Below are positions 41,393 through 64,000 of a DNA stretch of 64,000 nucleotides, one piece after another; the stretch's first letter is position 1, and the number at the start of each line of letters is the position of its first letter. The DNA lies in NCBI GenBank assembly GCA_964023275.1, contig OZ029923.1, forward strand, positions 10,182,238 through 10,246,237, written 5' to 3'. The notes under the pieces are model-generated. The model saw only the letters and a list, made by a program, of their open reading frames with translations. It was not told the DNA's origin and did not search any database. This stretch comes from Norana najaformis. Taxonomy: Eukaryota > Annelida > Clitellata > Crassiclitellata > Hormogastridae. Position numbers and translations under genes: made by a program.

Positions 41393-41522
41393 CCCGAGGT
41401 ATATATGATCCCTCAGTATTTCAGAAATTCTCAGGAGAATGAAAATATTCTGGGACGGCTACACATCGTCAAGATCTGGCGGAGCATAGTACCGTGGAAG
41501 ACAAGAGTGTTAAAGAGCTTTT

Positions 41523-41600
41523 TTATTGTTAATTAACTTCTATGGCGCCGGTGTCTAATGCACAAGGCATCGCCCTATGGCACCCCTAATAAAGCCATTC
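41523..41600 (-). repeat. SINE-like family F fragment
   Basis: TTAACTTCTATGGCGCCGGT and CACAAGGCATC, as in the 4835 and 56920 copies. Confidence 0.45.
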
Positions 41601-41819
41601 AAGTCAACACCAGTCAGAAAGAGGAACAAAGACAGCCCGACGGAGTAGGAGAGAGATATGTACTTGTTTACGAATGGCGAATGTTTCAACAGGTCAGCCA
41701 AGTCTCGTATCAACACCTGTTGGATTTCCATGAATTGAGGCTCACCGGTGGTCGCACTTGGAACTGTACTCAATGCCAGTCCCAAGCATCTGCTCAAAAG
41801 CATTATTGCTGTGTGGGTG

Positions 41820-42012
41820 TATGTATGTGTGTACATATATTTGTATGTATGTATGTATGTGCGTGTATGTAAGTATTATATATATATATGAATGTATGTA
41901 TGTACGTACGTACGTTTCCATGTATGTATCTGTGTATCTATGTATGTATCTATGTATGTGTATATGTGATCGCTGTATGTATGTATGTATGTTTGTATGT
42001 GTGTATGTGTAA
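41820..42012. repeat. (ATGT)n microsatellite at the downstream edge of the LTR element
   Basis: Diverged TATG units with GTAC variants. A similar ATGCATGTATGTATGCATGT stretch lies at the other edge of the element, at 50331-50350. Confidence 0.85.
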
Positions 42013-45000
42013 AACTCATCTCGCAGTCTGCTATGGTGCTTAATGTTACCTGTTGTCCGATTTCAATGAGCTCTTCTGAACTCTGTAAGGGGGGAATCTT
42101 CAAATTACGGTTGTATTGTATTACTGTATTGTATTGCATGTTAGTGCATGTATGTGAGTGTGTATGTATTCTGAGTGCATACTTACAGATATATGTGTGG
42201 CTCTCACGTTCCACTATCTGGGCAAGAATCAAATCTAATGGCGTATGATTCTCTCTTCCCAAGAACAGGAAATTAGGAGTTCTTTGGGTAGCTTCATGTT
42301 CCGTCGACCGATATGCCGCCATCACATATGGTACATGAACGTCCCAGTCCTTCTGTCGTTCCGATACCACTTTCCCGATCATCATGTTCAGGGTTCGGTG
42401 AAACCTTTCGATCATTCCGTTGCCCGACGGCCGATAGGGAGTCGTCCGTATTTTATCAATCTCCATCAGTTTACACAGCTCTTTGAACAGAGCTGATTCG
42501 AAACACGGTCCTTGATCCGTCAATATCTGGCGTGGCATACCGAATCGAGAAAAGACGTGCACCATTAGAGTTTCTGCAACAGTAACGGCCTCTTGGTTTC
42601 TAATAGGTAGTGCTTCAGCCCAACGAGAGAAATAATCTATCGCGGTCAGGATATATTTGTTCCCTTTGCTGGATACCGGGTGTGGTCCAGTAATATCAAT
42701 TCCAAATCTCTCCATTGGCTCACCTACCAGCGGACTCTGCAAATAACCCTGTCTTGGTGGCTTTTCTCGTCTATACCGAGCACAGCGATCACAACGTTGA
42801 CAAAACCGTCTAACATCGTTCTTCCAGCCTGGCCAATATGCCCGACGTTGTAACTGGCTCATGCTCTTACGGATCCCAAAGTGTCCTCCAGCGAAACTTC
42901 CATGCGTCAATTCAAGCATCTCCTTTCGTCGAGATAAGGGTACGACCAACTGATAACGTTCAACTTGCCCGGTACTGCCTTGAACCCAGACTCTGTGCAG
43001 CACGCCTTGGAGCACTGTCAACTGATTCCAGTTGCTCACCAATACTTTGATTTCTTCGCAAGAAGGCGAGAGTTCTTGTTCGGTTGGATGGTGATTGGAC
43101 TCCTTCCAACTAAGAACTGGACCAATACTACGATCGTTCTGCTGCTCTCTTCGTAGAATCTCTTTAGTCCAACCAGCTTCCTGGCCTGAATTTCCATCGG
43201 TCAAATCTGCGGGCGGTACCTCTTCGATAGGACGTACCCACGCCGCCTCTCCCATCAATCGTTTACTGTCGTCTTCAATACACTGTCCTTCAGACGGGCC
43301 CCGGGACATGGCATCTGCATTCCCGTGTTTTGTCCCTGCTCGGTGACAAATTTCTAAGTCAAACTCTTCTATCGTCTCCAACCATCGAGCCTGCTGACCA
43401 ATCGGTTCCGGAGTTCTGCGCAACCACTGAAGCGCGGAATGGTCCGTCCGCAGGAGGAATTTTCTGCCCAACAGGTACTGACGGAACTCTTTGAGAAAGT
43501 AGACCACAGCTAGCAATTCTCTTCTGGTCACATTATAATTTCGCTCTGCCGACGATAATAGTCTGCTTGCATAGGAGATCACTTTTTCTTGTCCTTCCTG
43601 CACCTGTGATAACACCGCTCCGATGGCATAAGCGGAGGCATCCGTGTCCAATATATACTGCCCATCATCGTTGGGTAGTGCCAATACTGGTGAAGTAACA
43701 AGCCTTCGTTTTAGTTCCTCGAAAGCCTCTTGGCATTCATCGGTCCATCGAAACGGAACATTCTTCCTAGTAAGGAAGTGGAGCGGTTGGGCAATCACCG
43801 CGAATTCTGGTATGAAACGTCGATAGTATGAGCAAAGTCCTATAAAGGATCTCACTTGTCGCAAGTTCCGAGGAACGGTCCAATCTTCTACAGCCTTGAC
43901 CTTATTCGGGTCTGTGGCTACCCCTTCATCACTCAATATGTGTCCAAGGAACAACACTTTCTGCTGAAGCAGGTGGCACTTGGATGGCTTCAGTTTGAGG
44001 TTATACTCTCGTAGTCTTCTGAACACCATCTCTAACCGTCGCATATGTGTCTCTACATCCCTGGAGAACACAATTATATCGTCTAGATAAACTAGACAAA
44101 TATCGTAATTAAGTCCAGTCAAGACCAAGTTCATTAACCGACAAAACGAAGCGGGGCTATTACACAATCCAAATGGCAACACTCTGAATTGGAAACTTCC
44201 CCTTCTTGTCACAAAAGCGGTCTTATGCTTGTCTCTCGGATGCAGGGCCATCTGGTGGTACCCTGACCTCAGATCGAATGTACTATACCATCTGGCTCCT
44301 CCAAGTGTATCCAAACTCTCACGGATTAGAGGTAACGGATGGGCGTCTTTGCGCGTTTTAAGATTTAACTGTCTGTAATCTACGCAAAAGCGCATACTGC
44401 CATCTTTCTTCTTTACCATTACGACATTGGATGCCCAATCCGACATTGATGGCTCCACAATTCCTTGGTTCAACATATCTTCTACCTGACGATCAATCTC
44501 TGGCAACATAGAAAGCGGCTGTCGTCTCAGTGGTTGACGAACAGGTTTCTCTTGCTGGGTATCAATCTCATGCTGTATTATCGAAGTAAACCCATGGTCA
44601 CTCTCACTCAGCGAAAACGTTGTGCTGTAGGAAAGCACTAACTCACGTAACCGTCTCCGCTCGTCCTCTGAAACGTCAGGTGGAACCTCTTCCCATAATC
44701 GTTTCAGGACCTGTTCTGCTTCAGGTTGGTTCGGCTGCTCTGTCACTCCGGTCACCATACGGATCTTCGAAGATGTCTCTTCAGTATTTTTGTGCTCTTC
44801 CCCGAACTGTTTAGCTTCGGCATCAATCAATTCAACACGTTCCAACCAACATTCGGTCCTTTTCTTTACAACCGAGTTTTTGTTCCCAACGTTCAACATT
44901 CTTATCCACACTTTCGGTTCCTTTCCTGTAACCAAGGTGCGTCCTATCATCAGGTCTGGTGTCAGTTCCGCTGGCACGGTGGTCCAGTCTCCGTTATCCT

Positions 45001-48000
45001 CTCGGAAATGCGGATATACTACTGATGCCGGAACGTCAACCTCGCTTCTAGGAGGAACTACAGTGTCTTCCTGAACGACTACTCTTCGGCACATAGATTC
45101 AGCAACGGCTTCTTTTAGAGGGATTCTTTCGCTCCCTAACCATACAGACCGACTAGCAAAGTCCCATCTAGCCTGATTACTCTCTAGCCAGGACAATCCC
45201 AAGATCACTTCGGTCACTTGGTCTGTCACTAAACATGGTAACTGGTACAATTTCTTTCCAATACGAATCTCCAGCGTAGTTTCACCGTCCACTTTTATCT
45301 CGCTTCCGTTCGCAGCTAAGAGACGCTGCTCCGATGGTGTCAACTCGGTGCTCAGTACAAGACGTCGTGGCACAAGTGACATCTCACTCCCTGAATCCAT
45401 CAGACAATGAAGTCGCTTCCCTTCTAGTCTAGCGACGACATAAGCCATCCTGCTACCCTTGACCAAGCGATTCTGAACTTCCTCTTGGATGTGTTCTGCT
45501 TTAGGAGGTTCATTGTTACTGCTTTCTCTACCCGTTTCGGAAACTCGTTGAGGACAAAACCTTTTTATGTGCCCTTTTTGTCTACAGATGTAACACTCGA
45601 TATCAGGGTTTCTCAACCGTCCTTGCGGAAATAACCGTTTCTGCGTACCGTTCGTATCGGTTTTCCGTTGACCATCAGCGCCTCCTTCTAAACCGCCCTC
45701 TCTCTCTTGCGGTTTTCCCGGTACAAGACTGGGGTCTTGCTTACTGGTAAATCGCCCAATTTCTTTAGACAGATTCTTAATCTCCCTTTCGAGATCATCT
45801 AAACGACGATTTTGTTGCTCGTCGGCAACCGAGGATTTCCGATCCTCTCTTGTAACTTTAATTCGGCCATGCCTACGGTCAATATCAGTAGCCTGTGATG
45901 AAGATCGACCATAAGCGTCTAATCGAACGGCGTGCTTATACGCAGCCTCAAGGTTATCTGGTTCTTTCTCTCGCACCTTCTGAGCCAAATCTTGGTTAGC
46001 GAGCGCATCAATGAACGCGTCGCAAGCAACCGTTTCGACAATATCGCTTGTGGGTCCCGGATAGGCCAAAGCCATCAGCCTCCTTATTTCCTGCACTACA
46101 TTGCTCAAGCTTTCTCCTGGAGCCTGTCTGTAAGTGCGAAGTTTCATTCGATAAAGACTGGTCTGGTCTTCGGATCCGTATCTGGCTTTAAGCCTTTCAA
46201 CGAGTTCATGCCAGGTTACGTTTTGGTGTGCACCCATATCCCACAACAGTTGAGATGCGGGCCCTGTCAGAGCACACATTAATTGGTCTGCTTTCTCTTG
46301 GTCACTCCATGCGTTACAACGAGCACAGACTTCGAATTTCGCCAAAAATGCGGCAACCGCCGTTTTTCCATCATATTTTTCAAGTTTAATTCGTATCCCT
46401 CGGTCGGTCGCCTTTCCGTTTCTCTTCTCAGTAATACGCGTCTTTTCCATACGCTTTTTATAATTCCTCGTAGTTATCTCACGATCACTTGGTTCACTTT
46501 CCTCTGCACTACTCAATGTAGACCGATGGTGGTCGGTTACATGGCCCTCGGAATTCCCGAAATCTGCCACTTTGACTTTAGTACGAAATCTCTGGGAACT
46601 TTCTCCGCTATCCGTACGTCTCCGGGCGCGGTCGCCAATATCACTCATTCTGAGTTTTTGGGCTCTGTCAGGTTTATTTTCCGAGCCGCTGTCGGCGTCG
46701 CTTTCCGCCGTCTTCATGCCCAAGTGGCTACGTTCTTTGAACTTAGTATTCTGGCCTGCAGAGCGTCGCTCTCGTGTCGCTTCCCAAGCAGAAAGATCTC
46801 TGTCCGTTTCTCGGTCTTCGCAGCGTCTTTCGTATTTGACGGGAGCTCCCGAGGCAAACGTATCTCTCCCGGTTTCTCGGTAAATCCCGCGTCTCTGACT
46901 TTCGCGGGACATTTCCCGAGCTTTTCGACCAAAAGCATTTCTGTCGTTTTCCGGGTACTTTCCGCGTCTCTCACTTTCGCGGGACCATTCCCGTTCTTTT
47001 CGATCAAAAACCTTTCTACTGGTTTCCGGGTTTCTCCCGTGTCTCTGACTTCCGCGGGACCTTTCCCGAACTTCCCGACCAATTGTCTCTTTGTCGGTTT
47101 CCGGGTACTTTCCGCGTCTCACACTTTCGCGGGATCTTTCCCGATCTAATGTCTCTCGGCCAAACTTCTGGTAAGACTTGCGTCTTTCACGTTCACGAAC
47201 TATCTTCAGACCAGAATTTCTGTCACTCGATACTGCATCTCTGTCTGTCTCTGAATCGGTCGCGCCATCTGACGAAGATTGTCTCACATCAACTTCGTAT
47301 TTTTCAGGCAGAAATCGCCTCCACAATTTTCTCGACTGTCCGTCCTGAGAAAGTTCTCGTTTCTCTGGGTAACCTTGGCTCCGCGAGTTTCCCGAAACTT
47401 CGGCCTTCGGAAATCTCTGTTCCTTCTCTGGGAACACTCGGCTCCGCGACTTTCCCGACAATTCGCCTTCGGAACATTCTTCACGTATCTCTGGGTAACC
47501 TCGGCTCCGCGACTTTCCCGTAACTTCATCCTCAATGTTTCCTCGGCGATCTTCCGGGTTACCTGGGCCCATAGGGTTCCCCGAAATTACGCTTCGGATC
47601 ACGTCTGAGGGTTGAGCCGTTAGAACTGACATTTCTTCCAGCCTGTTACTCAATGTTATCACAGTCTGCCGTAGGTAAGACATCTCAGCCATCCAGTCCA
47701 TTTGATTTCTGGTGGAACTGCCATGGTCTTGGTCAGCCACCCGCGAACGCACCTCATCATCGTAACACCAACGTATCCCAAAAGTACTTGTTTCCTTCTC
47801 TCTGCATATAGGTCGCGGTACTCCAACCTGTTCGAATGCTCTTGGCATACCTCCGACGATATTCTCGTGTATATAATAACTCTGGTTGTCCTCAGCCATT
47901 TCTGTCATCCATGGGACCATTCTTGAAAACTTTTCGTAACCCGCGAGAGAAAACAAATTTCTCTCAAGATCTCTCTGCGTCCCAGCTTCCGTTTCAATTG

Positions 48001-50329
48001 TAATAGGCGCGTCTTGCGCAGATATTTCTTTACACAACGTTCGCGTATCTGGAAATATCTTTGGGCGAGCACCTCGGTAGTCCACACTTGCCTGCTCAAG
48101 GTGGGGATTATCATCTGACTCGTCATCTGCATCTTCAAGAACTTCCTCTGGTCTACGGAAAGAAAACGCTGGTACCCCACTTCTGGTACCACTTTGTGGC
48201 GTTTTCGGTCGGGCTAACTGTCCACGGGGTGGGGGTAACTCTAGCCCAGTTCTACGCTCAGAGCCACCCGCCTCACTGCCCCTTGCACTCTCACTGTACA
48301 ATGGTCTTCCCGTATCATCTCTTCCCATACTGTCTGTTCTCTCCAAGGAAGGCCTAGGATAGGTCGCTTCCCTAAGGGAATCAACACTGTAACTCTCGGT
48401 CTCGGGATCCGACTTTGCCTCTTCCGCGGTCGCCGGATGGGCAACGTCCTGAGGATGGCCTTTACTCAGAACAGGGTTCGTTCCTTTACTGGCAATAGTC
48501 GTTCCCTGTCTCCGTGAGGACTTTCTTGTAACTACCATTCTACATCTTGTAACTCTCCCGTTACCGCCAATATTTTCAGGCACCAGTCGTTTTCTCGGTC
48601 CCGGGAACAGGGAAGTCTCACAACGAGCCTCTGTGTCTTTCCACCCTAGGCACAAGGATATTGGGCGACACATCTTCCCACTATCTCGCTCCATTTCCGT
48701 GTATAGGATTTCCGGAGTAAGTTTCTGCACCAGATCTCTGTTGGCAGTTATCAACCAACAGTGCTTCAGGGGATAGGATACCCCTATGGAACACTCAAGA
48801 GAAGGTCCCCTCTTTAACCTTCTGTAAAACACACCAACCTTCGTACCGACCTACGCACGAGGGGGCCCTTCCCCGTACTTCAGTCAGTCCTCTGATCAGT
48901 GTGTGGCGACAAGCATATAGAGGAGTCGGTATCTTCCCGTTTCGACTCCGGTGTTATCGGGGAACCGACCCGGACTATGATGTACCGGGTATTTTCTTGG
49001 TCTGCGTTGTTTCCGGTCTCTTACGTACCGGGACTCTACTTGGTCTGCGTTGGTTTTTCCGCGGGTCTTCCCGTATCCCGCTCTCTGAATTTCGACCGGG
49101 AGAACCGCGGCCGCAACTTTACCCGAGTTTCGCACAACCTGTTATGTTCCAACTATCGTGACTTACTCGACCGTCTCGCGACGTTCCAACAAGGCGGGCC
49201 CAAACCCTGCGGATCAACGCGGAGCCAGTCAGAAATCAGACAGATTGGTTTGTTTCGGTTGCGTCTTCCTCAGGAGCGCACGGACCAATTTCTAAACGGC
49301 ACGGGTTTCTGTCGTACGGCAAATGCTACCCCGGGTTCACACAGACCTGTTTACTCGTATTTTCCCCGAGCCTCGCTCAGCGGCTGTTCACCAACTATCG
49401 TGACCTACTCGACCGTCTCGCGACGTTCCAACAAGGCGGGCCCAAACCTTGCGGACCAACGCGGAGCCAGTCAGAAATCAGACAGATTGGTTCGCAACGG
49501 CTGCGACGTTCCCGGGAGCGCACCGATCCGATTTTTCTCTTACGCGGTCAAAGGGGTAGCTTCCGCACTTTCCCACTTGTTTTACACAGACCTGTATTTA
49601 TTTCTTTCGAACGGGGTCTTTCCCCGGGTTCTGTCCAACCGCTCACCGTCGTGACCCAGGCCGCTTCGCGATCTACGGTAGAGCCCTAGCTCCACTCGGA
49701 TCGGCGCCGTCAGCCCGAAGCCAGACAGTGATTATCTCGGTCGTCCCGCCGGGAGCGCACAGATTAGTCTTTTCCGCGGACTCTGCCGTCCGTATATTTT
49801 ATCGTAACCGGGACTGTATCGATCACGGGCTTCTCCGGACGTCACCCTCGTCCGTATATTTTATTTGTATACGCTATGAATTCGCTCACAGAACGATATC
49901 AAAACACTGTAACTCGTATATGTGAAGGCACGCATCCATCCTTCACGTCTATAGCAAATCACCATGCGACACGGTTTATTCAACCCTCGTTTCCTATTGA
50001 CATCGGGTTGCTTATATACTAGCGCTTACGATAGAACGTAAATAAAGGTGTCTAAAAGTGCTCGATTAAAACAAACATCTAGAGACCTATAAATTAAAAC
50101 AATTATGTGCATTATATAACTAAAAATAAACTAAGAACTTTGCTCGGCCTAAATATTATACTATTATTATAATCAGCTTAAATTTAATAAAAAATAATTT
50201 ATAAAAATTCTACACATGTAACGCGGCCGAACCGAGCACATAAGCACAGCATTTAATGGCTACCTAAAGCGCGTCATAATTACTCCCGCCTTCTACCCAA
50301 CAGGCTTGTCTTGTGGCCGATCCGCCACA
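41870..50329 (-). mobile_element. Ty3/gypsy-type LTR retrotransposon (fossil; nearly whole, about one break)
   Basis: One minus-strand gag-pol frame covers 48832 to 41876, about 2,300 codons. Parts in order: a long Arg/Glu/Ser-rich N-terminal region with short repeats (about 47600-46700), a gag capsid-like region (about 46420-45900), a CCHC zinc knuckle (about 45600), an aspartic protease (about 45400), reverse transcriptase (about 44530-43900), RNase H (about 43680-43400) and integrase with an HHCC zinc finger and core (about 42900-42400). An LTR-like stretch at about 49900-50329 starts TGTGGCGGATCGG on the minus strand and has TATA- and AATAAA-like motifs. I found no second LTR, so the copy looks incomplete at its far end. 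The long unbroken frame suggests a fairly young insertion; without an LTR pair no age can be computed. Confidence 0.93.
49155..49500. repeat. Direct repeat of about 100 bp in the LTR element leader
   Basis: The block CTCGCGACGTTCCAACAAGG ... GCGGAGCCAGTCAGAAATCA occurs at about 49160-49250 and again at about 49398-49490, nearly identical. It lies between the LTR-like stretch and the coding frame. Confidence 0.8.
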
Positions 50330-50331
50330 TA

Positions 50332-51190
50332 TGCATGTATGTATGCATGTAATTATCTATGTACAGTATATATGAATATAGCTATCTAAGCAGTATATGA
50401 TAATATACTGTTATCGTGATTTTCAGCGTCATCGTCATCATCGTCATCATCATCATCACTTTTCCCGGTGTAGGAAAGCTTCTTCATGATAAAAATATAC
50501 AGGATTATAACGCTAAATAACAAATCTATTATGTATTAATATAATTATATTTATTATTAGAAAATAACAAATACTAACGTTTATGGCGTCTTATGCGGAA
50601 GTCATAACGAGGCATAATTAGACATAGAAACAAAGTTTTTTAAAATATTGACACCGTTAACCAAAAAAAAAATACAAATGCAGCGGATCGTCTAAGAACC
50701 TGAGAGATTATAAGCGTTGCAGCTGTCTTCATCGCTTCTTGGGTTCGTCTAAGACCCGACTGGGTAGCGTCGATCCGTTGTGAACACTGAGGGTAAATTG
50801 TTTTTCTCTTCTCACTCGTTACAGAGTAGGCTCACTGGTGAATTCAGAAGTTTACAAAGGAAACAAATTACTATGGCCATAAAAAACCTTCCCGGAAACT
50901 TTATAGCATTTCTAGCCATCGGGAGTTTTCACAATTGTAGTTTTAGATCACTAAATGTTTTGGGAGTTTTGTCGTCTCAAGGATATTTTTGTTTCTGTGT
51001 GTCCCAACTTTTTTCTTTCATCATATCCCAAAAATTCACGTTCAACATTTTCATTCTGATTTCAGTTTTATGGCGTGTACAATCTTCAAACATGTTTGAA
51101 AAAATCATGAATATTGGGGAGACGTAAGCAGAGATATCCATTCAACATACGCGCTGGGATTCAATCCCCCATGCCCAACAGGAATCGACA
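50332..51190. other. Intergenic stretch between the LTR element and the adaptor gene
   Basis: Holds (ATGT) and (CATCAT) short tracts (50340-50460) and an AT-rich interval. The 115-codon + strand frame at 50780-51127 shows no family features. The region may include the 3' UTR of the minus-strand adaptor; TTTATT (AATAAA on the minus strand) occurs near 50549. Confidence 0.35.
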
Positions 51191-51193
51191 AAA

Positions 51194-54100
51194 CTAATTC
51201 TTTTGTTTGGTGAAAAGCCGGCCAAGCACAAATCCATTTCCGCCAGCGTCCTTGAAGAGCGGGTGTTTCATGTAGTAAAGGATGACGTTGTGAATTGTTT
51301 TGAAGTAGTGATGTCCGATGAAATAGGAACCGGTTTCGGTGAGCCGGATCTCAAAGTGGTAGACGTGGTCGCCCTGCTTTATGGAAAGGACAAGATGACC
51401 GGTCTGAAAAAGCAAGAAAATAATAATGTTCATCGTCATGATCTTCAAAATCGTCACTCGTCATGATCATTGTACTGATCATCGTATTGATCATCATCGT
51501 GATTTTCATAATCATCAGCATCGTTATGATCATCGTCATGATCATGATCGAGGCCAATGACCACGATAATCATTTGAAAACTTAAGAAGACAATGACAAT
51601 CATCACCTCCATGATATTTATTGGCAGCCGACCATAGTAGAGTAGACCAAACCAGACTACATTAGACGAATGCAACTGAACAGAATCGAATAGAATAAAT
51701 TAGAAAATAGAACATATTAGAATAGAATGGAATAGAATGGAATAGAAAAGACAAGAAAAAAGTGAAGAATAATAGAATAATAGAGAACACAAAAGAGATT
51801 AGAATAAAAGAGAATAGAGTAAAAGAGAATCGAACAAAAGAAAACAGCATAAGAGAACAGAATAAAAAATAAAAAAATAAACGAGAATAGAATGAAAGAG
51901 AAGAGAATAGAATAGAAAAGTGAAGAATAATACAATAGAATAAAAACGAATAGAATTAAACAGAATGGAATTGAACGGAACGGAATAAAGAATTAAACCG
52001 AACAACACAGACCATAATAGAAATATTTTCCTCAACGGATGAACAGCACATCACCGCTGGCAGCGAAAGATCTTGGGAGTCACGTGGAGAGACATGGTGA
52101 GGAATGAGGAGATCAGGAGAAGAACGGGAATGGAGAGAATTGAAGAGATGATGAAGAGAGCAAGACTGCGATGGTTGGGACACCTGCACCGCATGGATGA
52201 GGACAGAATCCCAAAGCAGGCAATGGACTGGGCCCCAGGCGGGTGGAGAAGGAAGAGGGGAAGACCAAAAAAGAGCTGGAAGAACACAATCACAAAAGAC
52301 CTCACAGATGGAGGACTGACGTGGGAGGAGGCTGCCAGAGCTGCTCAGGACAGAGAAGGATGGAGAACCTGTATCGCCCAATGTGCGCCAGCACGTGGAG
52401 GGACTAAGGTCTAAGGATGAACTCTTTCAGAATACAAACCGCGTTGGCACTTTCTCGAACGAGGAAGTCCGACTGGTTTCCCGTCTTAAGGAGTGCCTCA
52501 CACTCCGCTCGGCCGAGGACTCCGAAGCTCCAGGGAGCATAGGGCGGCATCGCCTTTCCACTGATCGTCTTCGAATCCGGCTGTAAAAAAACACAACATT
52601 AATTGAACTAAAATTGCTTTTAATCAAAAGCCATGTTAATAAACCTAGTCAAAAGAAATTTACTTTTTGAATGTAATTATTATTGGGCATGGTAAGATAA
52701 AATCAAAAATGAAAAGTAAGGAAGGAAAGGAAAAACAGGGTAAGTTAAGGTAAGGTGAAAAAAGTAAGGTAAGGTATTGTAAATCAAGGTTATAGCTGTA
52801 GAAACGTAACTTCAGGTGAAGTACTATGACGCAAGGGATGGCAGGTAGGTAAGAAATTATACAGGTAGGCAGATGGATAGAGAGTAGAGAAAGTAGCTAG
52901 ATAGACAGATGGATGTGGTGGCAGGTAGTCAGTCAGAGCTTACTGTGATGATCCTCCAGTAGTCAGCTGGGACCCAACCGATGGCGTTTCCTGTTGTAAT
53001 GAACCACCAGAGGTCCGTAGTGTAGAGCAGGTGCGCCCTCTGGTTCCTCTTGAAGGGCAGCGTGCTGTCGCCGGAGCTCTTTCGGTCTCTGACGGCAAGG
53101 ATGCAGACATTCGGCACATCTCCCTTTGGCAGCTGTACAATACAGTCGTAATGAGTCAACGATGGATTGAGTGAATGAATTAATGAAAGAAAATATGAAT
53201 GATGGATGGGTGGACGAATGCAAGAACGAGTGAATGGATGGATGGGTGGGTGGGTTAATGGGTGGCGGAAGGATCAACCGAGTGGGCGATTGAGCGAATG
53301 AGTGTGTTAGCGAGAGTGAGGGCACGAGTGAGGGAATGGTTGAGTGAGTCATTGAACCAATTATTCAATGATTGAATGACTCGATGACCGAGTGAATGAA
53401 TTTCGCATTTTTCGAGTGAGGATAGAAAGACTCCATTCATTCATTCATTCATTCATTCATTCATATAATCGTTCAGAAATAATAACTAAAAAGAAATGAG
53501 TGACTGCTGATACACATTGCAGCAGACTTCACATCTGTCAATTACAGCCGTTGCTTTAGAAACCGTTGCTATAGAAACCGGTTTGTTTTCATGCACTCAT
53601 TCGCTTCATCCACTGACCTCCTTCTTCGACAACTTGACGTCCGGTGAAGACGGACATTTCTCTGGTGTTTGGCTCGGCGGCATAGGAATCAAAGTACGAT
53701 GGGGAAAATCTGAAATGTATATCATATTTGGTTAGGTTTATGTAAAATCTTATCTAATATGGTCCAATCGAACCTAATGTGGTATGATTTAGACTAGTCT
53801 GGTCTAAACTAGCCCCAAGTCTTTTCTAGTCTAGTCTAGTCTAACCTAATCTAGTCTAGTTTAATCTAACCTTATCTAATCTAGAATCTGGAAGAATCTG
53901 AACGTTAGCTTTTGAGTAATTCAAGTCAGGTAAATTTAGCTACATCTTGACTACAACTTAACTAAAAGTGAACTTTTTAACTCTGGATACATGGATGGGA
54001 ATAGGAATAGACTAGATGAGGTAAGGATTAAACTATGCAGAATAGACTATAATATACTGGAGTAGATTATACTAGAATGTACGAGTCTGTAGGAGGCTAT

Positions 54101-55798
54101 ACTATACTAAAATGGACTGGACTGGATTAGACTACAATAAAGTAAATTGTAATATAACATAATAAACTAGAGTAGATTAGATTGGATCACAATACTAGAC
54201 TAGACTAGACCAGACTAGTCTAGACTAGACTAGACTAGATTAGATTAGATTAGAATAGATTAGATTAGCTCATTTGTACTCGACATCATGGCAGCGTCGA
54301 AGATTCCTCGTTGCACTTTCTCCGAATCCTCCTCCCTTTTTGCCGGGGGTTTGGGAGTGCTTTCGGCTAAGTCAGACATCTCAAGGGCTGGTTCCGGTAT
54401 GAGGACCTCGGCCTTCTCCGTGATCTCGGACTCCCTTGCCTGTCAAAATAGATCTGGTTTAGAGGATCTGAAAAGGAGCTGTAGGGGAGGAGCAGAAAGA
54501 GGACGACAAGAAGGAGGAAAGATGAGGAAAGTTAGAGGAGAGTTAGAAGAAGAAGAGGAATAAGAAGAATAGGCAGACAAAAAGGAGAAATGTGAGAAGA
54601 AATAAGAAGGAATAAGAGGACAAAGAAGAGAAGGAATTGTAGGAATGTAGGAGGAGGGAGGAGAGGAGGAGAAAGTCTCGTTGGCTCTGCTCCATCATAC
54701 CTCTGGGACTTCTGCATTTCGGTCTCCTGGGTTCCAGGCCGTAGCACTCTCTGGTCGGCCTCCCTTGGGCTCCTGACTGTCCCTCGTATGCGCACTGCAA
54801 CAGCTCAGTCTAGAAGCTTTGCCTATCTGGGACCTACAAGCTGGAATCGCCTTTCCCGAGAGATGTGGCTCGAGTTCCTCATTTTGTCCTTTCCTTAGTT
54901 TCAAGCGCCTGAAGTCTATTATTTCGCAGTGGCCTCATTGGTTCGGGTCAGGAGCGCCCCTGGTGAGTTTATTCTTGAAGTGGCACTTTATAAATGTCAG
55001 ATTACAATTACAATTACAAAGAAAAGGCAAACAGCAGGAGAAGAGAGGAGGAGGAAAGGGAACAGCAAGATGAACAAGGGAAGAAGAGGAGCAGGAGGAG
55101 GAGCAGGAGGAGGAAGGGAAGGGAAGCAAAAGATGAGAAAGGTGTCAATAGGCTGTGAAAAAAGATGAGAATGTTGTTATTGTGTAACTAAATAAATAAA
55201 AACAAGAAACAAATAAACATTAATTAAAACAAACATTAATTAATTAATATTCAAATATTTATACAATTTTTTATTAATTAAAATAAATAATTGAAAAGAC
55301 CTTGAACTTGGCTTCTTCACGTGGTCCAATCGAGGTGCGAGGCGGGACGATCGGAGCAGGTCTTTCGTCTTCATCCGATTCATCAGGGTCAAGCGTCGGC
55401 TTCAGCCAATCACAAGGCTGCGACGACTTCAGAAGCACGACATCGGCATACACGGCTGAAGTCACTTCGCGTCGCTCTCTGAAGAAAGTGCAATCGAAAC
55501 TAAAGGATCCGGATCCGTTCTGATCGGATCAGATCTCTTCTGATTCTGATCTAATCCGATCGGTTTGAATTACATGTAACTTGTCATACACAATAGATGG
55601 AGCTAATATAGAACGAAAATCTCTTCAGTTAACGATATATTGATGATAGTGATGATGATGGCGGTGGTGGTGGTGGTTGTCGTGGCTGTGGTGATGGTGA
55701 TGATGATGACATCGTGACCCATGAATTTTGCAGGCATGTCCAGATGAGGATGGTGATGATGGTGATGATGGTGGTGATGATGATGATGGCGATGGTGG

Positions 55799-55847
<49 letters not shown>

Positions 55848-58800
55848 CAGTTGTTGCCATTACAAAGGCGAGATCTTGATCCTCCTTGTCCTCTCTTTGA
55901 GCAAGTAAGTAAGTAGACTTTATTAGCGCGAGATAAATGCCCATACTTTACAGCAAATTGCACAGGAAACAATGAAAAACTAGCACAATGTTAGTAAAAG
56001 CGATATATTATAACCAGTCATAAAAATCTTATTTAAAGTACAATTGGAGAGAAAATGATAATATAAAAATATACGGTTCCAGAGAAAGCTAATATCAGTT
56101 GTATTGAAGCAATCAGGAAAATTCCATCATAATTCAAATCACTAAACTCCATCATAATCTGCTAAGATCTATTCCACTCCTGGACAGATTTGTCCAGCAT
56201 TGAAGACATACAGTATTCAAATTCGAAGACTGTTGCTGTAAATGTAAATATCTGAAATTTCTTTGCGCCACACAAAAGCCGCGTCAGGGAGACCAGCTCT
56301 TCGCCGGCGCTACATGAAATCAAGTCTGTTTGGCCAGTTTCGGTGCCAGGTCAGAATCCGCGGTCGGGGGTCAGGCAGGGGGTCAGGCCGGGGATAGCGC
56401 GTGTTGCTATCCCTGAAATTATCGATTATGGTGGTCATGGGATGATGCAGATCATTTACATTACGCCTCTAGTAGAAAAGCTTCTCAGTTAACAAGTGCT
56501 GGAAACGAAAGATAAAGAGCAGGTGGATCAGTAGATTATAAATACGACATCGATGATGATGAAGATGAAAATTACCTTTTTTCTCTGGCGACGATTTCGA
56601 CCTCGACATAATTCAGTTTCGAATTGGAACTCGGTTGCAGTTTCAACTTCCGGGCGTTAGGTAATCTGCGCACGTCACATACGTCACATTTAGGTCAGGT
56701 TAGGTCAGGTAATGTAACGCGCTTCATGGTTACTTAACTAAGGTCAGGTCAAGTAAGGAATATCACACGACAGTAAGGGAAGATAATGTAAAGACAAGAC
56801 ACGGTAAAATGAGGCAAGGAAATGCTAGTCAAGGTAAAGGATGGTATATTATGGCGAGGTAATTCAAGGCAAGGTAAAGCAAGAACAAATGAGACATGGT
56901 AGGCTCATCTTACCTAACCTAATCTATTGACTTCTATAGCGCCGTTATAATGAGGCACAAGCCATCAGCTGATGGTCGCTTCAAGTGAAACTATATGCAA
57001 AAAATGCAATCCGTTGGAGAAGCCAATAAAGGTAAGGCCAGGTAAGAGTGCCAGGCAAAAAAACGGTAAGCTGTGATATACAGACCCACTCGTAATGTAA
57101 ATTTTCATTTATGAAGCGCCAAAGGAAGGCCACGCTTCAGTTGCAAATATGGCGCTATCAAAGTTACAAACGAAAGAGTTGACCTACACTTCTTCGTAGT
57201 CGTCATCTGGTGTCGGTTTCTTTGATTCAGCTTCCGGTTCCGGTTGAGATTCGGGTGCCTTCCGGAAGCCGTTTTCCTTTCCTAAGTCAAGCAAGAACAG
57301 GAACGGCAGGAACTCGCAACAAGAAACATTAATTAGAAACTTAACAAAAACAATAAGGACAACTAAAGTGAGAACTGAAAGAAAAATTAATACAATACAA
57401 TGTAATACAAACGAATACAAAGTAATGCATTAGGATTTAATACAATGCAATACAATACAATGCAATACAATACAATGCAATACAATACAATGCAATACAA
57501 TACAATGCAATACAATACAATGTAATACAATACAATGTAATACAATACAATGTAATACAATCCAATGTAATACAATCCAATGTAGTAGCCTATAATACAA
57601 TGTAATACAAATGCCAAACAAAGCACTAAATGCATTGCAATACAACCTAATAAAATACCATACAACATAATACAATAAAATGCACTGTGATACAATGCCA
57701 TACAATTCAATGCAATGCGTTACGATTTAATGCAGTACAATACAATACAAGACAACTGTGATCCATTGTTACCGGATTTCCTGTCACTGCCCTCGACTGG
57801 TAACGTTTGTTTCTCTGCGTTTGTTATCAATTCAGTTGACCTATTTTATAGAAAATCAGACAATTAAACGAAGAATTAATGGTTGAGTGAATGAATGATT
57901 GAGTGAATGAAAGAATGGTCAGCCAGTTAGCCAGCTGATTAGCTGGCTAACTGGCTGGCTGGCTAGTTCTTTTAATAGTTAGTTGACTAACTAATATAAC
58001 ACAGCTGACTGGCTGGCTGTGTGATTGACTGACTGATTCATTCATTCTTTTTGTTCAATTGTTCATTTATTCCTTTGTTTGTTCGTTCCTTTATCTATCC
58101 CTCCTTCCCTGCTTACCTCCATCCTTCCATCCAGATTTGCATTATACTGTACTGCATCCATCCGTCCGTCCATCCATCAATCCGTTAATCAATCCATCCA
58201 TGCACTCATTCATCCATCCATCTATTAATGCTTGCCTTGTATGTATGTATGGATGTATGTATGTATGCAAGTATAGGTATCTGGCTATTTATAAAGCGCC
58301 TTTTAAGAATCTCACAAAGGCGTAAAACTAAACTATCTTATAGGTCTGAAAATGTGCAATTCAATGCAGGTTCTCTTTTCTTGCTTTGCTCTATCTTGCC
58401 TCTTCTCTTTACCTTGCCTTGCCCTATCTTGCCTCCTATCTTTACCTTGCCTTGCCCTATCTTGCCTCCTATCTTTACCTTGCCTTGCCCTATATTGCCT
58501 CCTATCTTTACCTTGCCTTGCCCTATCTTGTCTCTTATCTTTACCTTGCCTTGCCCTATCTTGCCTCCTCTCTTTACTCTGCCTTGCCTAGTCTTAAGCA
58601 GACGAACTGACTTACGATGGTGGGATCGTAACGACATCTGTCGGCGATGCTTGGAATTGACTCGCGATTGCCGGCAGCTTGCCTTGTACATGCGGCAAGT
58701 TTATGATTTGCTACCGTCATGTAAAACACACATGAATACAGGTCACATAAGTGCTGTCGTATACTGTCCACTATATCATAAAATTTGGAAGATCATAAAT

Positions 58801-61800
58801 TGATGATGTTATGGTCGAATCTGTGTGATTAAAGGCTTAGTCGCGTACAAGTGATTGGTCTACAATCAATTTAGTAGCCTACATTTAGAACAGGCGATTT
58901 ATAACGCCGGCGCCTTATCGCGAATGATATAAAATGAGAGAGAGAAAGAGAGAGGGAGAGAGAGGGAGAGAGAGGGAGAGGGACAGAGACAGGGACAGAG
59001 ACAGGTTGAGAGAGGTATAGAGCAGGCAAGGTTGTAGCTAATCGGAAACAACAGAGGAGTTCCACAGAAGGGACATTTTGCCGAACTGGCACTCAGATGG
59101 GTATCGCAGAATAGGCTAGTGCCGCTAGTTACCACTATTACCACTACCGCTACCGCTGCCGCCACCCCACCACCAACTACAGCACTACCACTGCCACTAC
59201 CAATACCACTACCATTACCGCTACTACTACCACTACTACTCCTATCACCACTACTACCACCACAACTGCCAGCACTACTAGTACCACACAACTACCATTA
59301 CTACTACTAGGCTACTACTACTACTACTACTATTGTTGTTTAAAATAGTTATTTTCTTGCTGTTCTCTTACTTTACCTTATCTTACCTCTTACCGGACCT
59401 TTAAACGAAGACTCAGATTTGTGGCAAAACCTACCAAGCAGAATTCGTCAATGTTTTTCTTTCTCTTTTCCTCTTTTCTTGCCTTCGAGGCAAAACCACC
59501 AACCTTACCATCTGAACAGAAGAGCATCAGTCAAATATTACGTAGCTGGTTTGGCCCAAAGACGTATGCATTTTTAGACCCTTAGACAAAAGCCTAAAAC
59601 CCTATACACGATTTAACCATTCCGCCAAGGCCTAACAGCTTGTTCACAATAAACGTATCGTGAATCACACACAAAGGCCTTAAACCTATACAATGAGTAA
59701 AACATAAATCTAATGGTTAGCATGTTGGACTGTCAACTGAGTAATCGAGGGTAAAATCCCCGCCAGTGCAGAAAATTGTTCCCAGATCTCTGCTCCCTTT
59801 TGCGCCCTCTAGCCAACTCGGATATGAGGAGTACACTTGAAAACGCACTTGTTTAGATCGGTAGGATAGCCGTGTCATCAGCGCTTTTGAGAGGTACTTG
59901 AAGAGCGCTATATAATTGCTTGTTACATTACATTACTGACCGTAGGCTATCAATGGGAAGATCAGGAAGCGAGAGAGAAGATTGGCCACCCTTCCTTTTG
60001 TGCCAAGGCCGAGAAAATGAAGTCGCTAACGCTTCCAACCCATGGCTACCTCAGGGCTAGCTTAAGAGACTGCTCTTCTTAAACTTCTAATGTATACATG
60101 TATAAATACATACGTGCATGACATGTATTCTGTAAACGTGACCAGCTGTCAGTGATAGCACAGGGTTGCAATTTTTGGCAGATATGTATTAAAGTTTATG
60201 TACAAGCCTCTTTTTTTCAAGTTATCCACGCACATCACAGAGATCTGTCTTTGTCAACAAATGCATTACTTACATATTTACTTATGACACATGTTGAAAT
60301 ATGACTGCAATGCCTATCTATTCAAAACACTCCCCCACATACCCCGTGCAGTCACACCCGCTGTCTATGTGGTATTTCCCAGTGCGTCATTGCGACTCCC
60401 ACATAACCATAAGCTACTAATCCCTGCTTAACATTAAACGATTATCACATCGGGTTCGTACATCTCTACGTATTCCCAAAAAATCAGCTCACTAACATAT
60501 GCATACATACATACATACATACACACGTGTATACAAACATACATACATACGTACATACATACATACATACGTACGTACATACATACATACATACATATAC
60601 ACACAAACATGCATGCATACATATATACACCACATATATCAAGATATAATTAGATTGAAGAACATGGATACAGTAGTCAGTTGATTCACCTGGCATTTCC
60701 GGTATGACTACTTCCGGCTTGCTCTTATACACTTCCGACCTCAGGTGTTTCTATGGCGACAGAGAAAGACGTGATATGATTTGAAGTTGAAACGCTTCAG
60801 TGAATTTGAGTTATATTGAATTTAATTTATTAAATAGAACATAATATAATTTATAACATTATGTGACAGTGGAATAGGATAGAATAGATAACATTAATTT
60901 ACACTGGAAGAGGAAAGAATAGAATAGATAACATCAATTAATATTGGAATGGAATGGAACAAATTACATTAATTTGTTTTGGAATAGAATAGAATCGATA
61001 ACATTAATTAACACTGGAATAGAATAAAACAGATAACATTAATTTACATTGGAATAGGATAGAGTAGAATAGAAAACATTAATTACTAGTCGAATTGGTT
61101 GGAATGGAATAAATCACATTGATTTACATTGAAATAGTTCCGAACAGCATAGTGCAGGAGCGAATGAATTAGAACAGAACTGAATAGAATGGAATAGAAT
61201 AAAATAGAATAGAGTACATATATGATTTGCCATTAGTGAGTAAGTAGCATCGTTGAACTAACTCTGAGTAGACCGAGATTCTCGGACGAAACCTCCTTCG
61301 ACGTTTTCGATTCATCCGACCAAGTTATTTCAAACGAATACAACTACAGAGGACAAAAGAACATGTAACTTAAGGCAGTTCAGTGCATAGTTAAATGATG
61401 TACTATGTCATGTTATTTAATGGTCTGTCATGTTATGTTATGTTATGTTATGTTATGTTATGCTGTGTCATGTCATGTTATGTTATGTTGTGTTATGTTC
61501 TGTTATGCTGCGTTATGTTACGTTATGTATTGTTATGTTATGTAGTTAGCGGTTAGCGGTAGTTAGCGGTAGCGGTTATCTATGTAGTGTTTTTCTATGC
61601 TATGTTATTATAAGTTATGTTATGTAGTGCTACATTATGATGCTTAGTCATTAGGTAGTGACGATTAATAAATGCAGAAAAATAGTAATGATGATTTATG
61701 TTAGGCTATGCTATTTACTGCTTCATAACAGACTTAAATGACAGAATGTAGGCCTACTGTAATTAGCTGTAATGCGATGGATCGTAATGCGATAGATAAT

Positions 61801-63655
61801 AGCCAGAGGGAGGGACGCAGGCAGGCAGACAGTCACGGATGCAAGCAGGGAATCAGTCAAAGAGGCAAGCGGGCAGACAGGCAGACAGGCAGACAGGCAG
61901 ACAGGCAGACAGTCACGGATGTCACGGGAGACAGCGAGACAGACCGAGCCAAAGAGACAGAGTGAGTAAGAAAGAGACGAAGAGAGACAGGGTAAGGGGT
62001 AGAATGAGACACAAAAGAGAAATTTTAAATATGTATGACATTGTATGTACTTCCTGAACGGAACTCCGTGTGAAACTTGTCAACGAAACTTGGGCAAACA
62101 GACCGACAGCGAGAAGGCAGCAATTACAAAGTACTGATAGAGGGACTCACTGGCAACTCATTTACGAACCCAGCCAAATGTGGGTCATGACCTAGTTTAA
62201 GTTTCCAAGCGGATGTATTTCACGTTAGCTCTTTAATTTATTTTCTCAGACCGAGTAACTTACTCCGTCCGACGTGCCATTCGTGCATGAGGAGTCGTGG
62301 TGTAGCATGGTAAATGTAAATGTAGATGTACACGGTCTTCTATAGCGATCGTATTGCCTCGACCCTGCTCTTTTTGCAATGAATTAATCGGGTGAGATCC
62401 TTCGCCACCGTTGCCCGTTTGAATGGGCGCCACGCCATTTAAGGTCCCCGTGCACGAACCATACTAGTCCGAGATTTAAATCTCTCAAAATGAGCCACTA
62501 TCGGGAAGCGAACCGGGGATCCTCACGCATAGAGTCTCCCTGACGTACGCACTTACCGAAGTAGCTAACTAGGCCAGTTTGTAGCTGAGTGCCTAATAGT
62601 GTTAACATTATAAGAAGTGTTAATATTACGTACCAAAGTCAACACTGTATTATTAAATCTCATAATACACACAATAACAAATGCCATCATACTAAATCAC
62701 ATACCAGGTGATTGATGTGTTTCGTTAAAATAAAAGCATGAATAATAAATGGCATTAACAGAGCATAACTTAGCAAACATACATCTCATAACTTAACCTA
62801 ACATAACATACCTAGCATAACACTCATAACATAACATAGCATAACGTAACGTAACAAAACATAACATGCATGACATATCATAGCATATTATAGCATACAT
62901 AACATAGCATAGCATAACGTAACATAACAATTTACCGTGAGGTAACATAACGTGGCATAACATAGCATAGCATAACACAACGTGACGTAACGTGACATGG
63001 GTTCTAAGTGGTTCAGGAGACATTTAATCTGTATTAGAAACACTGCATTAGAACCGTTATATTTCATTATATTGAACTACATTGTATTGTATTACGTTAC
63101 ATTAGCTTGTCATCATGCAATACTGAACCACTTACGAGTTGTTTCCTGCCCTCCGTGGCTTTCTTGACGCCAGTACAGCTGAGCCCGACAACGAACTTCG
63201 CCGACATTCTACGGCGTTCCCTACTTCGGACGCGTTACCTGAACGAGGCAGTTCCACCCGTCTGACTATTTCTTACACAACCCTGAAACACTACAGCCGA
63301 ACAAAAGTAAACACACTACGCATTGTTTTTTCTTTTCTCTGTTTTGTTCTCTCCTGGTGTTTCTTTCAGTTTTGGCCTTTAACGCTCAAGTACCGAACGC
63401 ATAATTACACGTAGATCTGTCATGTAAAACGGTTATTAACTTTTCCTATGCAGCAAGCGGCCGCCTGCATAGATTAGGCCTATTTCTGTCATCAGCCTAG
63501 TGCCCTGCGGGGCCCGCATACGCTGGCACGATAGTTGAATACGCGGACGCTTGAAAACAATCAGGTACGTCTACTTACTTTGATACCAACCAGCCGTGAC
63601 TCTCGAGTCTGAGTGTCGTTCTACCGTAACGATAGACAGGTCGTTTCTTTCAAAT
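51194..63655 (-). CDS. SH3 / tyrosine-motif / SH3 / SH2 adaptor protein (5' end outside window)
   Basis: Cytoplasmic phosphotyrosine-signalling adaptor by domain content. Exons in coding order: 63579-63655, 62151-62191, 61263-61343, 60690-60750, 57188-57281, 56576-56665, 55301-55478, 54280-54439, 53618-53709, 52944-53132, 52440-52580, 51194-51403. All twelve have GT-AG borders and matching phases, giving 470 residues. Residues 1-42 look like a diverged SH3 (FERNDLSIVTVERHSD, GWYQ, AGFV). Four tyrosine motifs follow: EVYKSK (Y74), DDDYEEV (Y115), LNYVEV (Y137) and AVYADVV (Y158). A proline motif PIVPPR is at 190-195. A second SH3 spans about 296-352 (TLPFKRNQRAHLL, DLWWFI, GWVPADYW). An SH2 spans about 370-465, with FLVRES (R396 should bind phosphate), and the protein ends soon after. 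A C-terminal SH2 after SH3s recalls Nck; the tyrosine-rich linker recalls SLP-76/BLNK. I cannot assign either. The shortest exons and the 54280 donor are least certain. Confidence 0.75.
51420..51560. repeat. (ATC/GATCAT)n microsatellite
   Basis: Diverged ATCATCGTC units in the intron just upstream (minus strand) of the last adaptor exon. Confidence 0.8.
51660..51990. repeat. Degenerate (GAATA)n array
   Basis: About 330 bp of AGAATAGAATAGAA units. The several minus-strand frames here are artefacts rich in Phe, Ser and Tyr. Confidence 0.85.
52035..52412 (+). repeat. LINE reverse-transcriptase C-terminal fragment, long open frame
   Basis: The + strand reads HRWQRKILGVTWRDMVRNEE, then RRRTGMERIEEMM, RLRWLGHLHRMDEDRIPKQA and a GRPKKSWKN tail. 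This is the conserved end of 'endonuclease-reverse transcriptase' LINEs. It has about 125 codons without a stop and is therefore younger than the other relics here. It is antisense in the adaptor intron and ends about 30 bp from the SH2 exon at 52440. Confidence 0.85.
53160..53470. repeat. (GAAT/GATG)n degenerate microsatellite
   Basis: GAATGA, GGATGG and CATT units in the intron between the second-SH3 exon and its upstream neighbour. It includes a clean (CATT)7-type run near 53433-53465. Confidence 0.85.
53735..54275. repeat. Degenerate (CTAGT/ATCTA)n array
   Basis: TCTAGTCTAGTC and GATTAGATTAGA units fill an adaptor intron right up to the donor of the 54280 exon. Confidence 0.8.
54785..55020 (+). 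repeat. CR1/L2-like LINE 3' end with (TTACAA)n tail
   Basis: The frame SFAYLGPTSWNRLSRE, followed by GAAGTGGCACTTTATAAATG and TTACAATTACAATTACAAAG. It is the same family as 2715-2960 and lies in an adaptor intron. Confidence 0.7.
55630..55855. repeat. (GAT)n/(GGT)n microsatellite
   Basis: GATGGTGATGAT units with a clean (GAT)15-type stretch at 55798-55845. Confidence 0.9.
56245..56400 (+). repeat. Dispersed repeat family D copy
   Basis: TTTGCGCCACACAAAAGCCG, CAGGGAGACCAGCTCTTC and TTTCGGTGCCAGGTCAGAAT, matching 18580-18700. Confidence 0.5.
56915..57035 (-). repeat. SINE-like family F copy, best preserved
   Basis: CTAATCTATTGACTTCTATA, GCGCCGTTATAATGAGGCAC, CATCAGCTGATGGTCGCTTC and AAGTGAAACTAT in order. 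It lies in an adaptor intron. Confidence 0.6.
57425..57610. repeat. 15-bp (ACAATACAATGCAAT)n minisatellite
   Basis: About ten units of 15 bp with GCAA or GTAA variants. The minus-strand frames over it (HCIVL repeats) are artefacts. Confidence 0.9.
57885..58280. repeat. GGCT/CATC/ATGT simple-sequence cluster
   Basis: CTGGCTAACTGGCTGG-type repeats at 57930-58035, CATCCATC units at 58120-58235 and ATGTATGT at 58240-58270. Confidence 0.8.
58380..58590. repeat. 33-bp minisatellite
   Basis: Six units of TATCTTTACCTTGCCTTGCC + CTATCTTGCCTCC, with few changes between units. Open frames on both strands are repeats of this unit. Confidence 0.92.
58930..59010. repeat. (GAGAGG)n purine tract
   Basis: GAGAGAGAGGGAGA units in an adaptor intron. 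Confidence 0.85.
59125..59330. repeat. (CCACTA)n / (ACT)n microsatellite
   Basis: TACCACTACCGCTACC units end in an ACTACTACT run. Confidence 0.88.
59705..60085 (+). repeat. tRNA-derived SINE family E, with inserted GCGCTATATAA module
   Basis: Same order as the 39655 copy: ATGGTTAGCATGTTGGACTG (A-box-like), a degenerate B-box region, CCAAGGCCGAGAAAATGAAG, TCGCTAACGCTTCCAACCCA and CAGGGCTAGCTTAAG. A segment ending GAGCGCTATATAATTGCTTG (59880-59925) interrupts the alignment in the middle and looks like a separate repeat tail. Confidence 0.65.
60500..60630. repeat. (ACAT)n microsatellite
   Basis: ACATACATACAT with GTAC variants, just downstream (minus strand) of the adaptor exon at 60690. Confidence 0.9.
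60830..61215. repeat. Degenerate array with units of about 55-60 bp (AACATTAATTTACATTGGAA)
   Basis: The phrase ATAACATTAATTTACATTGG + AATAGAATAGAAT recurs about six times between 60890 and 61140, over an (AATAG)-rich background. Confidence 0.65.
61425..61545. repeat. (GTTAT)n microsatellite
   Basis: TGTTATGTTATG units. The related arrays are at 62795-62990 (complementary strand) and 63770-63820. Confidence 0.9.
61815..61990. repeat. (GGCAGACA)n purine-rich repeat
   Basis: A clean GGCAGACA run at 61870-61910, inside a longer GA-rich stretch. A second GGCAGACAGTCACGGATG copy follows. Confidence 0.85.
62305..62595 (-). repeat. tRNA-derived SINE family A, near-complete
   Basis: The minus strand begins with a tRNA-like head (CTAGTTAGCTACTTCGGTAA region, 62550-62575) and a B-box-like GATCCCCGGTTCGCTTCCCG (62502-62521). 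The shared body follows to CATTTACATTTACC at 62310. It lies in an adaptor intron. Confidence 0.75.
62795..62995. repeat. (ATAAC)n microsatellite
   Basis: CATAACATAACATAGCATAACG units. Confidence 0.9.
62995..63065 (-). repeat. LINE 3'-end fragment (same family as 37790-38410)
   Basis: GGGTTCTAAGTGGTTCAGGA and GACATTTAATCTGTATTAGA match GGGGTTTAAGTGGTTCAGAA / GACATGTAATCTGTGTTAGA at 37848-37890. Confidence 0.6.
63136..63238 (-). other. Possible alternative first exon of the SH3/SH2 adaptor
   Basis: On the minus strand an acceptor-like TTCAG precedes 63238 and a strong donor CTC|GTAAGT follows 63136. An ATG at 63207-63205 opens MSAKFVVGLSCTGVKKATEG and then RKQL, ending in phase 0. That phase matches the exon at 61263-61343 (LYSFEITWSDES...). 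The joined sequence up to VIPEMPGK has a faint PX-domain look. Using it would skip the first SH3. It cannot be inserted between 63579-63655 and 62151-62191 without breaking phase. Confidence 0.35.
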
Positions 63656-63764
63656 CTGAGTTCAGTATCTAGTGGGGGAAACTATTGACAGGTGAATATT
63701 TTTCACCCCTGTGACCTGGATTCGATTCCTGCTAACCGAACGTAAAATTGCCAAATGGATTGCA

Positions 63765-63830
63765 CTGGAATGTTATGTTATGTTATGTTATGTTATATTA
63801 TGTTATGTTATGTGTTGTAATATGATGTTA
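63765..63830. repeat. (TGTTA)n microsatellite
   Basis: TTATGTTATGTTATG run. The remaining 170 bp to the window end show nothing recognisable. Confidence 0.9.
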
Positions 63831-64000
63831 TTTGAGAAAATGTAAGGGATGTATGGGCCGAATTATATTTTCAATGGGAGATAGTTTGAACCAGTGGGAA
63901 GAAGACCTATGGGCTGGAAATGTATCTTCAGTGAGATATCTCCCAGTGGGGTAAAGACCTAACGGCAGGAGCGAAATGAATGGGAAATGTAAACCTACCT

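Follow-up and report, generated by a model that had tools for sequence, protein, structure and literature searches.

A minus-strand gene of 14 coding exons

The window (the whole stretch of DNA that was analyzed, 64,000 nucleotides in length) contains on its minus strand one intact-looking gene, which extends from 63207 to 51194 and is composed of 14 coding exons (Table 1). The coding sequence is 1608 nt long and comprises 535 codons and a stop. All 13 introns of this model have GT-AG borders, the phases agree at every join, and there are no internal stops. The introns, together with pieces of a kinesin motor domain and of a K2P-type channel elsewhere in the window, suggest that the DNA comes from an animal. 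The preliminary description of the locus had chained 12 exons in phase; the in-phase chaining holds in the present model, but the number of coding exons does not. A search of the 535-residue model against the window returned 14 rows, which corresponded only to its own exons.

Table 1. Coding exons of the predicted PX-SH3-SH2 gene and a stretch upstream of it (positions in the window)
Feature	Position	Strand	Remarks
Coding exon 1	63136..63207	-	24 codons in phase 0; carries the ATG and the beginning of PX
Coding exon 2	61263..61343	-	PX; reads LYSFEITWSDES...
Coding exon 3	60690..60750	-	PX; holds YKSK (Y59) and the PxxP motif IPEMP
Coding exon 4	59435..59511	-	PX; basic stretch EEKRKK and IDEFCL; missing from the first model
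Coding exon 5	58616..58710	-	C-terminal part of PX, QIINLP...PTDVVTIPP
Coding exon 6	57773..57840	-	Linker
Coding exon 7	57188..57281	-	Linker with DYEEV (Y180)
Coding exon 8	56576..56665	-	Linker with NYVEV (Y202)
Coding exon 9	55301..55478	-	Linker with YADVV (Y223) and PIVPPR (aa 255-260)
Coding exon 10	54280..54439	-	Linker
Coding exon 11	53618..53709	-	Proline-rich linker
Coding exon 12	52944..53132	-	SH3 domain in a single exon, phase 0-0
Coding exon 13	52440..52580	-	First half of SH2, FLVRES
Coding exon 14	51194..51403	-	Second half of SH2 and stop codon
Stretch read earlier as N-terminal SH3	63579..63655	-	Unsupported

The first model of the gene had 13 exons, one of which was a micro-exon of 22 nt (58637-58616), and it gave no PX match in Pfam or in the PDB. 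It was replaced because a scan for the missing half of the PX domain revealed the micro-exon to be the tail of a 95-nt exon; the same scan pointed to exon 4. The domain searches in Pfam were run with the first model as a whole and, for the 14-exon protein, with the new part. Codon usage was assessed for the first model by a test trained on 180 codons from the SH3 and SH2 exons. The test is a weak one, with frame 0 scoring best in 4 of the 10 nontraining exons and being the sole stop-free frame in 6 of them. The mean for these 10 exons was 0.29 bits per codon, compared with -0.40 (standard deviation, 0.46; 95th percentile, 0.36) for 393 open intron windows.

Introns of up to 1.8 kb with numerous simple repeats and a PX domain that scores below the curated Pfam cut-off would be compatible with a chance assembly of exons from two genes or from a gene that has decayed. 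Such an origin is nonetheless quite improbable for 535 stop-free codons with canonical splice sites throughout, in which domains run on across exon joins and tyrosine motifs of like form are found on three separate exons. The locus looks like a real, intact gene.

A predicted, diverged PX domain at the N terminus

The N terminus encoded by exons 1 to 5 seems to be a diverged PX domain of the "organizer" type represented by p47phox and NOXO1. The PX profile search that had been proposed for the locus produces on these exons a Pfam match (residues 53 to 106; E value of 5.9e-4) of 20.8 bits, which is just below the cut-off of 21.6 bits. The match appears because exon 4 was added and exon 5 was taken at its full length. 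When the PX stretch was searched against the PDB (177,635 distinct sequences), the first 4 of the 10 rows up to an E value of 10 were p47phox, p47phox, NOXO1, and p47phox, with E values of 0.025, 0.049, 0.06, and 0.094, each of which is marginal when taken alone. The p47phox and NOXO1 matches are colinear with the PX stretch across about 120 residues. The unrelated ribosomal protein S17 stands directly behind the fourth organizer match (E value of 0.13), and the other rows consisted of S17 again (0.19), antibody Fab (0.39 and 1.3), a fifth organizer chain, from p47phox, in eighth place (0.46), and an RNA polymerase subunit (1.0).

Comparisons with shuffled sequences gave a score of 78 for the PX stretch against the PX domain of p47phox (shuffles, 25.8; standard deviation, 4.4) and of 68 against NOXO1, each reached by none of 5000 shuffles, figures that are biased upward because exons 4 and 5 were chosen partly by their likeness to p47phox. 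With the same bias, these two exons alone scored 58 against p47phox (0 of 5000 shuffles) and 30 against NOXO1, the latter being no better than shuffles (274 of 5000), and a profile made from two organizer references gave an E value of 1.9e-6 for the real stretch, with none of 2000 shuffles doing better than 0.7. The scan in which exons 4 and 5 were picked scored them at just 34 and 31, and the row that came next scored 30; the exons were retained on the fit of their phases and splice sites, which is support independent of the likeness to p47phox. In the N terminus of the first model, a PX domain was seen by neither the Pfam search nor the PDB search. Its 102 residues already resembled the first half of an organizer PX domain: the local score against NOXO1 was 46, which 5 of 2000 shuffles reached, and the score of the first 62 residues was reached by 1 of 2000; against p47phox the score was 31, which was reached by 161 of 2000 shuffles for the 102 residues and by 79 of 2000 for the 62 residues. 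In coding length and in phase, exon 1 equals exon 1 of human NCF1, in which intron 1 starts after c.72 (PMC12418599).

The alignments place R42-R43-F44 of p47phox opposite V42-S43-S44, and the conserved R43 of organizer PX domains is absent. The p47phox residues K79, R70, and R90 matter in lipid or anion binding; K79 and R90 are matched by K74 and R88, and R70 lies opposite no basic residue. The PxxP motif of organizer PX domains is retained. In TKS4, R43 lies in the conserved, lipid-binding region of the family, and the R43W mutant, which is presumably misfolded, loses its placement at the plasma membrane (PMC7663256). Because a serine occupies the position of p47phox R43, the predicted domain would be a PX without the usual 3-phosphoinositide pocket. 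It probably does not bind 3-phosphoinositides in that manner, and it may act more via proteins or via general basic charge.

Another frame of exon 4, GWWFCLEGKKRG (59504-59451, minus strand), was the top row of the scan, with a score of 52 and identity to SH3A of p47phox at 8 of 12 positions. This frame is flanked by two stops, and the likeness was judged to be a coincidence because the PX frame of exon 4 fits both the phase and p47phox.

The stretch upstream of exon 1

The preliminary description began the protein with an SH3 domain upstream of the present exon 1, and this part of it did not hold. The stretch matches SH3_9 with an E value of 0.17 and 12.2 bits, compared with a cut-off of 30 bits, and has zero matches in the PDB up to an E value of 10. 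A three-frame scan of 57001-64000 on the minus strand returned no SH3 row, a silence that is weak evidence since the split PX exons were missed by it too; its sole row was CDC45 (E value of 0.26). A stop codon in the frame of exon 1 begins 30 nt upstream of the ATG. Each of the three AG sites in this interval would have to be joined in phase 2, and the end of the upstream stretch is in phase 1.

One phase-compatible AG site does exist inside exon 1 (63158), and a join to it would give the layout originally described, namely, SH3, tyrosine motifs, SH3, and SH2, in a scaffold of the SLP-76/BLNK kind that has no PX domain. The tyrosine linker and the C-terminal SH2 domain would suit such a protein. 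We nevertheless regard this layout as very improbable, given that the first SH3 domain is below the cut-off in every search and that the join deletes the start of a PX domain whose alignment with p47phox begins at the fifth residue. The upstream stretch is possibly a 5' untranslated exon.

A linker with a repeated tyrosine motif

Residues 130 to 356 form a linker of 227 residues in which there are only three tyrosines, Y180, Y202, and Y223, each on a separate exon. All three have the form Y-x-[D/E]-V, with EEV after Y180, VEV after Y202, and ADV after Y223. Four tyrosine motifs had been assigned to the linker; DYEEV, NYVEV, and YADVV are indeed located there, but YKSK lies inside the PX domain. 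The PPR motif that had been ascribed to the linker is present in the predicted protein as part of PIVPPR. For the pattern Y-x-[D/E]-V, which was defined post hoc, once it had been seen, shuffles of the same composition contained three copies in 0 of 200,000 cases and two or more in 81 of 200,000; three copies of YxxV were found in 28 of 200,000. Of the linker residues, 12% are proline and 20% are acidic; the linker contains further PxxP motifs in addition to PIVPPR and would be expected to be disordered.

The SH3 domain and the C-terminal SH2 domain

The second of the two SH3 domains in the preliminary description was recovered, as exon 12 alone matches SH3_2 with an E value of 1.8e-5 and 24.7 bits (cut-off, 21.8 bits); within the whole first model, the domain reaches 21.3 bits, just below that cut-off. 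The SH2 domain, which is spread over exons 13 and 14, had an E value of 3.4e-15 in Pfam (first 13-exon model). It was correctly described as protein-terminal and as having the FLVRES arginine: FLVRES starts at residue 458, and the stop codon closes the second SH2 exon. The domain also carries an arginine and a histidine at the positions found in Nck1. The FLVRES arginine and this second arginine and histidine are residues that hold phosphotyrosine in SH2 domains. In a three-frame scan of 50901-57300 (minus strand, stops as X), the SH3 domain was found with an E value of 0.0055 and the SH2 halves with 0.031 and 0.00031; the other rows, FAM76 (0.26) and ZrgA (0.79), were taken as chance. Neither the model nor the three-frame scans contained a second SH3 domain that would make up a tandem pair, although one that is split or strongly diverged could escape such searches.

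Among the best 60 of 172 rows for the SH3 domain, the top matches were Nck2 (24.9 bits; E value of 1.7e-4), Abl, Src, spectrin, and intersectin (23.2 bits), and TKS5 and p47phox scored 21.4 and 19.5 bits, respectively. For the SH2 domain, the chains with the best single match among the best 60 of 250 rows (phmmer) were those of Grb2 (49.9 bits) and Nck1 (49.1 bits); RasGAP (68.1 bits) and many SHP2 chains rank at least as high in that set through the sum of their two SH2 domains. By BLASTP, the SH2 domain is identical to that of Nck1 at 31 of 93 positions (58.2 bits) and to that of Grb2 at 27 of 76 positions (50.4 bits).

It could be argued from the protein-terminal SH2 domain with its identities to Nck1, and from Nck2 as the first SH3 match among those best 60 of 172, that the gene encodes an adaptor of the Nck or Grb2 type in which the other domains were replaced and the PX domain is incidental. 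We consider this to be unlikely. The SH3 scores from Nck2 through Abl, Src, and spectrin to intersectin fall within two bits of each other, the SH2 scores of Grb2 and Nck1 are level, and two thirds of the protein consists of the PX domain and the linker. Neither the SH3 scores nor the SH2 scores single out one family as the source of these domains. Searches of a viral contig collection with the SH2 domain (116 aa) and of a genome contig collection with the 535-aa protein yielded 10 and 12 pattern matches, respectively, with 0 confirmed in each case, which says little since the records are viral and prokaryotic.

Relationship to known scaffold and adaptor families

Nck1 and Nck2 share with the predicted protein the order of SH3 followed by SH2 at the extreme C terminus. 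They have three N-terminal SH3 domains and no PX domain, whereas the present protein has one SH3 domain, a PX domain, and a long linker. SLP-76 and BLNK have a linker with tyrosine motifs, proline motifs, and a C-terminal SH2 domain, as is the case here, which is a likeness of layout; however, they have neither a PX domain nor the SH3 domain that is present in this protein.

The p47-related organizer family has five mammalian members, in which at least one SH3 domain comes after a PX domain (PMC7663256). This N-terminal PX-then-SH3 order is common to p47phox, NOXO1, TKS4, TKS5, p40phox, and the present protein. The PxxP motif in the PX domain is likewise kept, and the linker tyrosines resemble the tyrosine sites of TKS4. 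The serine at the R43 position is a difference. A C-terminal SH2 domain is mentioned for none of the five mammalian organizers in the accessible part of PMC7663256, and the term SH2 is absent from the main text of an animal-wide survey of Phox subunits (PMC2121648). In the open-license literature (titles, starts of abstracts, and term counts), no description of a PX-SH3-SH2 protein was recognized. To our knowledge, no organizer carries its own phosphotyrosine-reading domain or is itself recruited to phosphotyrosine sites. The earlier statement that the protein fits no known family is half right in this respect: the SH2 domain is unusual, but PX followed by SH3 is the layout of the p47-related organizers.

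The closeness of the PX domain to p47phox and NOXO1, the NCF1-like exon 1, and the reported occurrence of p47phox-like genes outside the vertebrates, including in limpet and sea anemone (PMC2121648), raise the question of whether the gene encodes a true NADPH oxidase organizer, i.e., a p47phox ortholog that has gained an SH2 domain and activates a Nox enzyme. In p47phox, which has two SH3 domains, the tandem pair binds a C-terminal proline-rich autoinhibitory region (PMC7663256). A single SH3 domain was found here, which by itself cannot build the tandem-SH3 groove of p47phox; the autoinhibitory region was not recognized by eye, and the equivalent of R43 is lost. Furthermore, TKS4 and TKS5, from the same family, are described chiefly as scaffolds (PMC7663256). 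An oxidase-activating ortholog is therefore unlikely. Since the searches returned no tandem SH3 pair and the equivalent of R43 is missing, the protein is filed as a variant of the organizer family with an added SH2 domain, and not as p47phox.

A possible phosphotyrosine-switched scaffold

We lean, with moderate confidence, toward one gene for a scaffold that is switched by tyrosine phosphorylation; its predicted product displays in an open frame an organizer-type PX domain, a linker with the repeated tyrosine motif and PIVPPR, one SH3 domain, and a C-terminal SH2 domain, in that order. The part that follows the PX domain is best read as a tyrosine-motif scaffold with SH3 and C-terminal SH2 domains that may read its own linker, and the best reading of the whole, as predicted, is a Grb2/Nck-like SH2 domain placed on a scaffold of the organizer family.

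By analogy with p47phox, TKS5, and TKS4, a closed state held by the SH3 domain, a Src-type kinase, and SH2 docking can be proposed. p47phox is closed by its SH3 domains on the proline-rich region, by which the PX domain is masked; TKS5 is thought to open upon phosphorylation by Src; and in TKS4, tyrosines are phosphorylated by Src and a pYEEI motif binds the Src SH2 domain (PMC7663256). In the resting state of the present protein, the SH3 domain might hold a proline motif, either PIVPPR or the PxxP of the PX domain, and so mask PX. A Src-type kinase would then phosphorylate the three linker tyrosines, and the phosphorylated linker could dock one type of SH2 domain, either that of a partner or the protein's own in trans, leading to clusters. 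Docking would free the PX and SH3 domains, and the complex would be placed at the membrane. Its own SH2 domain would also let the protein be recruited to phosphotyrosine sites.

A more far-reaching possibility, which we consider doubtful, is that the protein represents a sixth kind of p47-related organizer, with a PX domain lacking the lipid pocket, control by phosphotyrosine, and an SH2 domain of its own that reads the three Y-x-[D/E]-V motifs in trans, such that tyrosine kinase signals would cause a membrane or oxidase scaffold to self-assemble. Organizers such as p47phox, NOXO1, and TKS4/5 place oxidases and the actin machinery at membranes. An organizer bearing an SH2 domain, if true, would join organizer scaffolds and tyrosine kinase signaling in one molecule and would mean that the organizer family acquired, in one animal lineage or another, a type of reading domain new to it.

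Neighboring elements in the window

An unbroken open reading frame of 2324 codons of a Ty3-type retroelement occupies 41879-48850 (minus strand), with matches to Gag, protease, reverse transcriptase, RNase H, and integrase in one frame and with a three-copy repeat of 75-nt spacing inside it (46865-47147). An ungapped search of 40500-51000 detected no direct repeats of at least 60 nt placed as LTRs around this reading frame. Between it and the PX-SH3-SH2 gene are two 136-nt direct repeats (49149-49284 and 49391-49526) that are 90% identical and spaced at 242 nt. Two open stretches, at 52043-52414 (plus strand) and 6748-7053 (minus strand), look like C-terminal portions of non-LTR retrotransposon proteins; the first of these sits in the intron that splits the SH2 domain, near the donor site of exon 13.

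Pieces of a K2P-type potassium channel were found at 21122-25291 (minus strand). They include an open stretch of 756 codons in which a pore-like GYGH motif lies close to the beginning and Ion_trans_2 is matched at 656-735, from which the loop between the pores seems to be more than 500 residues long. Upstream of this stretch, 24614-25291 (minus strand) has a weak Ion_trans_2 match (E value of 0.0015). The final part of a kinesin motor domain, presumably of the KIF3 type, lies at 1377-1916 (plus strand; Pfam E value of 4.4e-5, below the cut-off).
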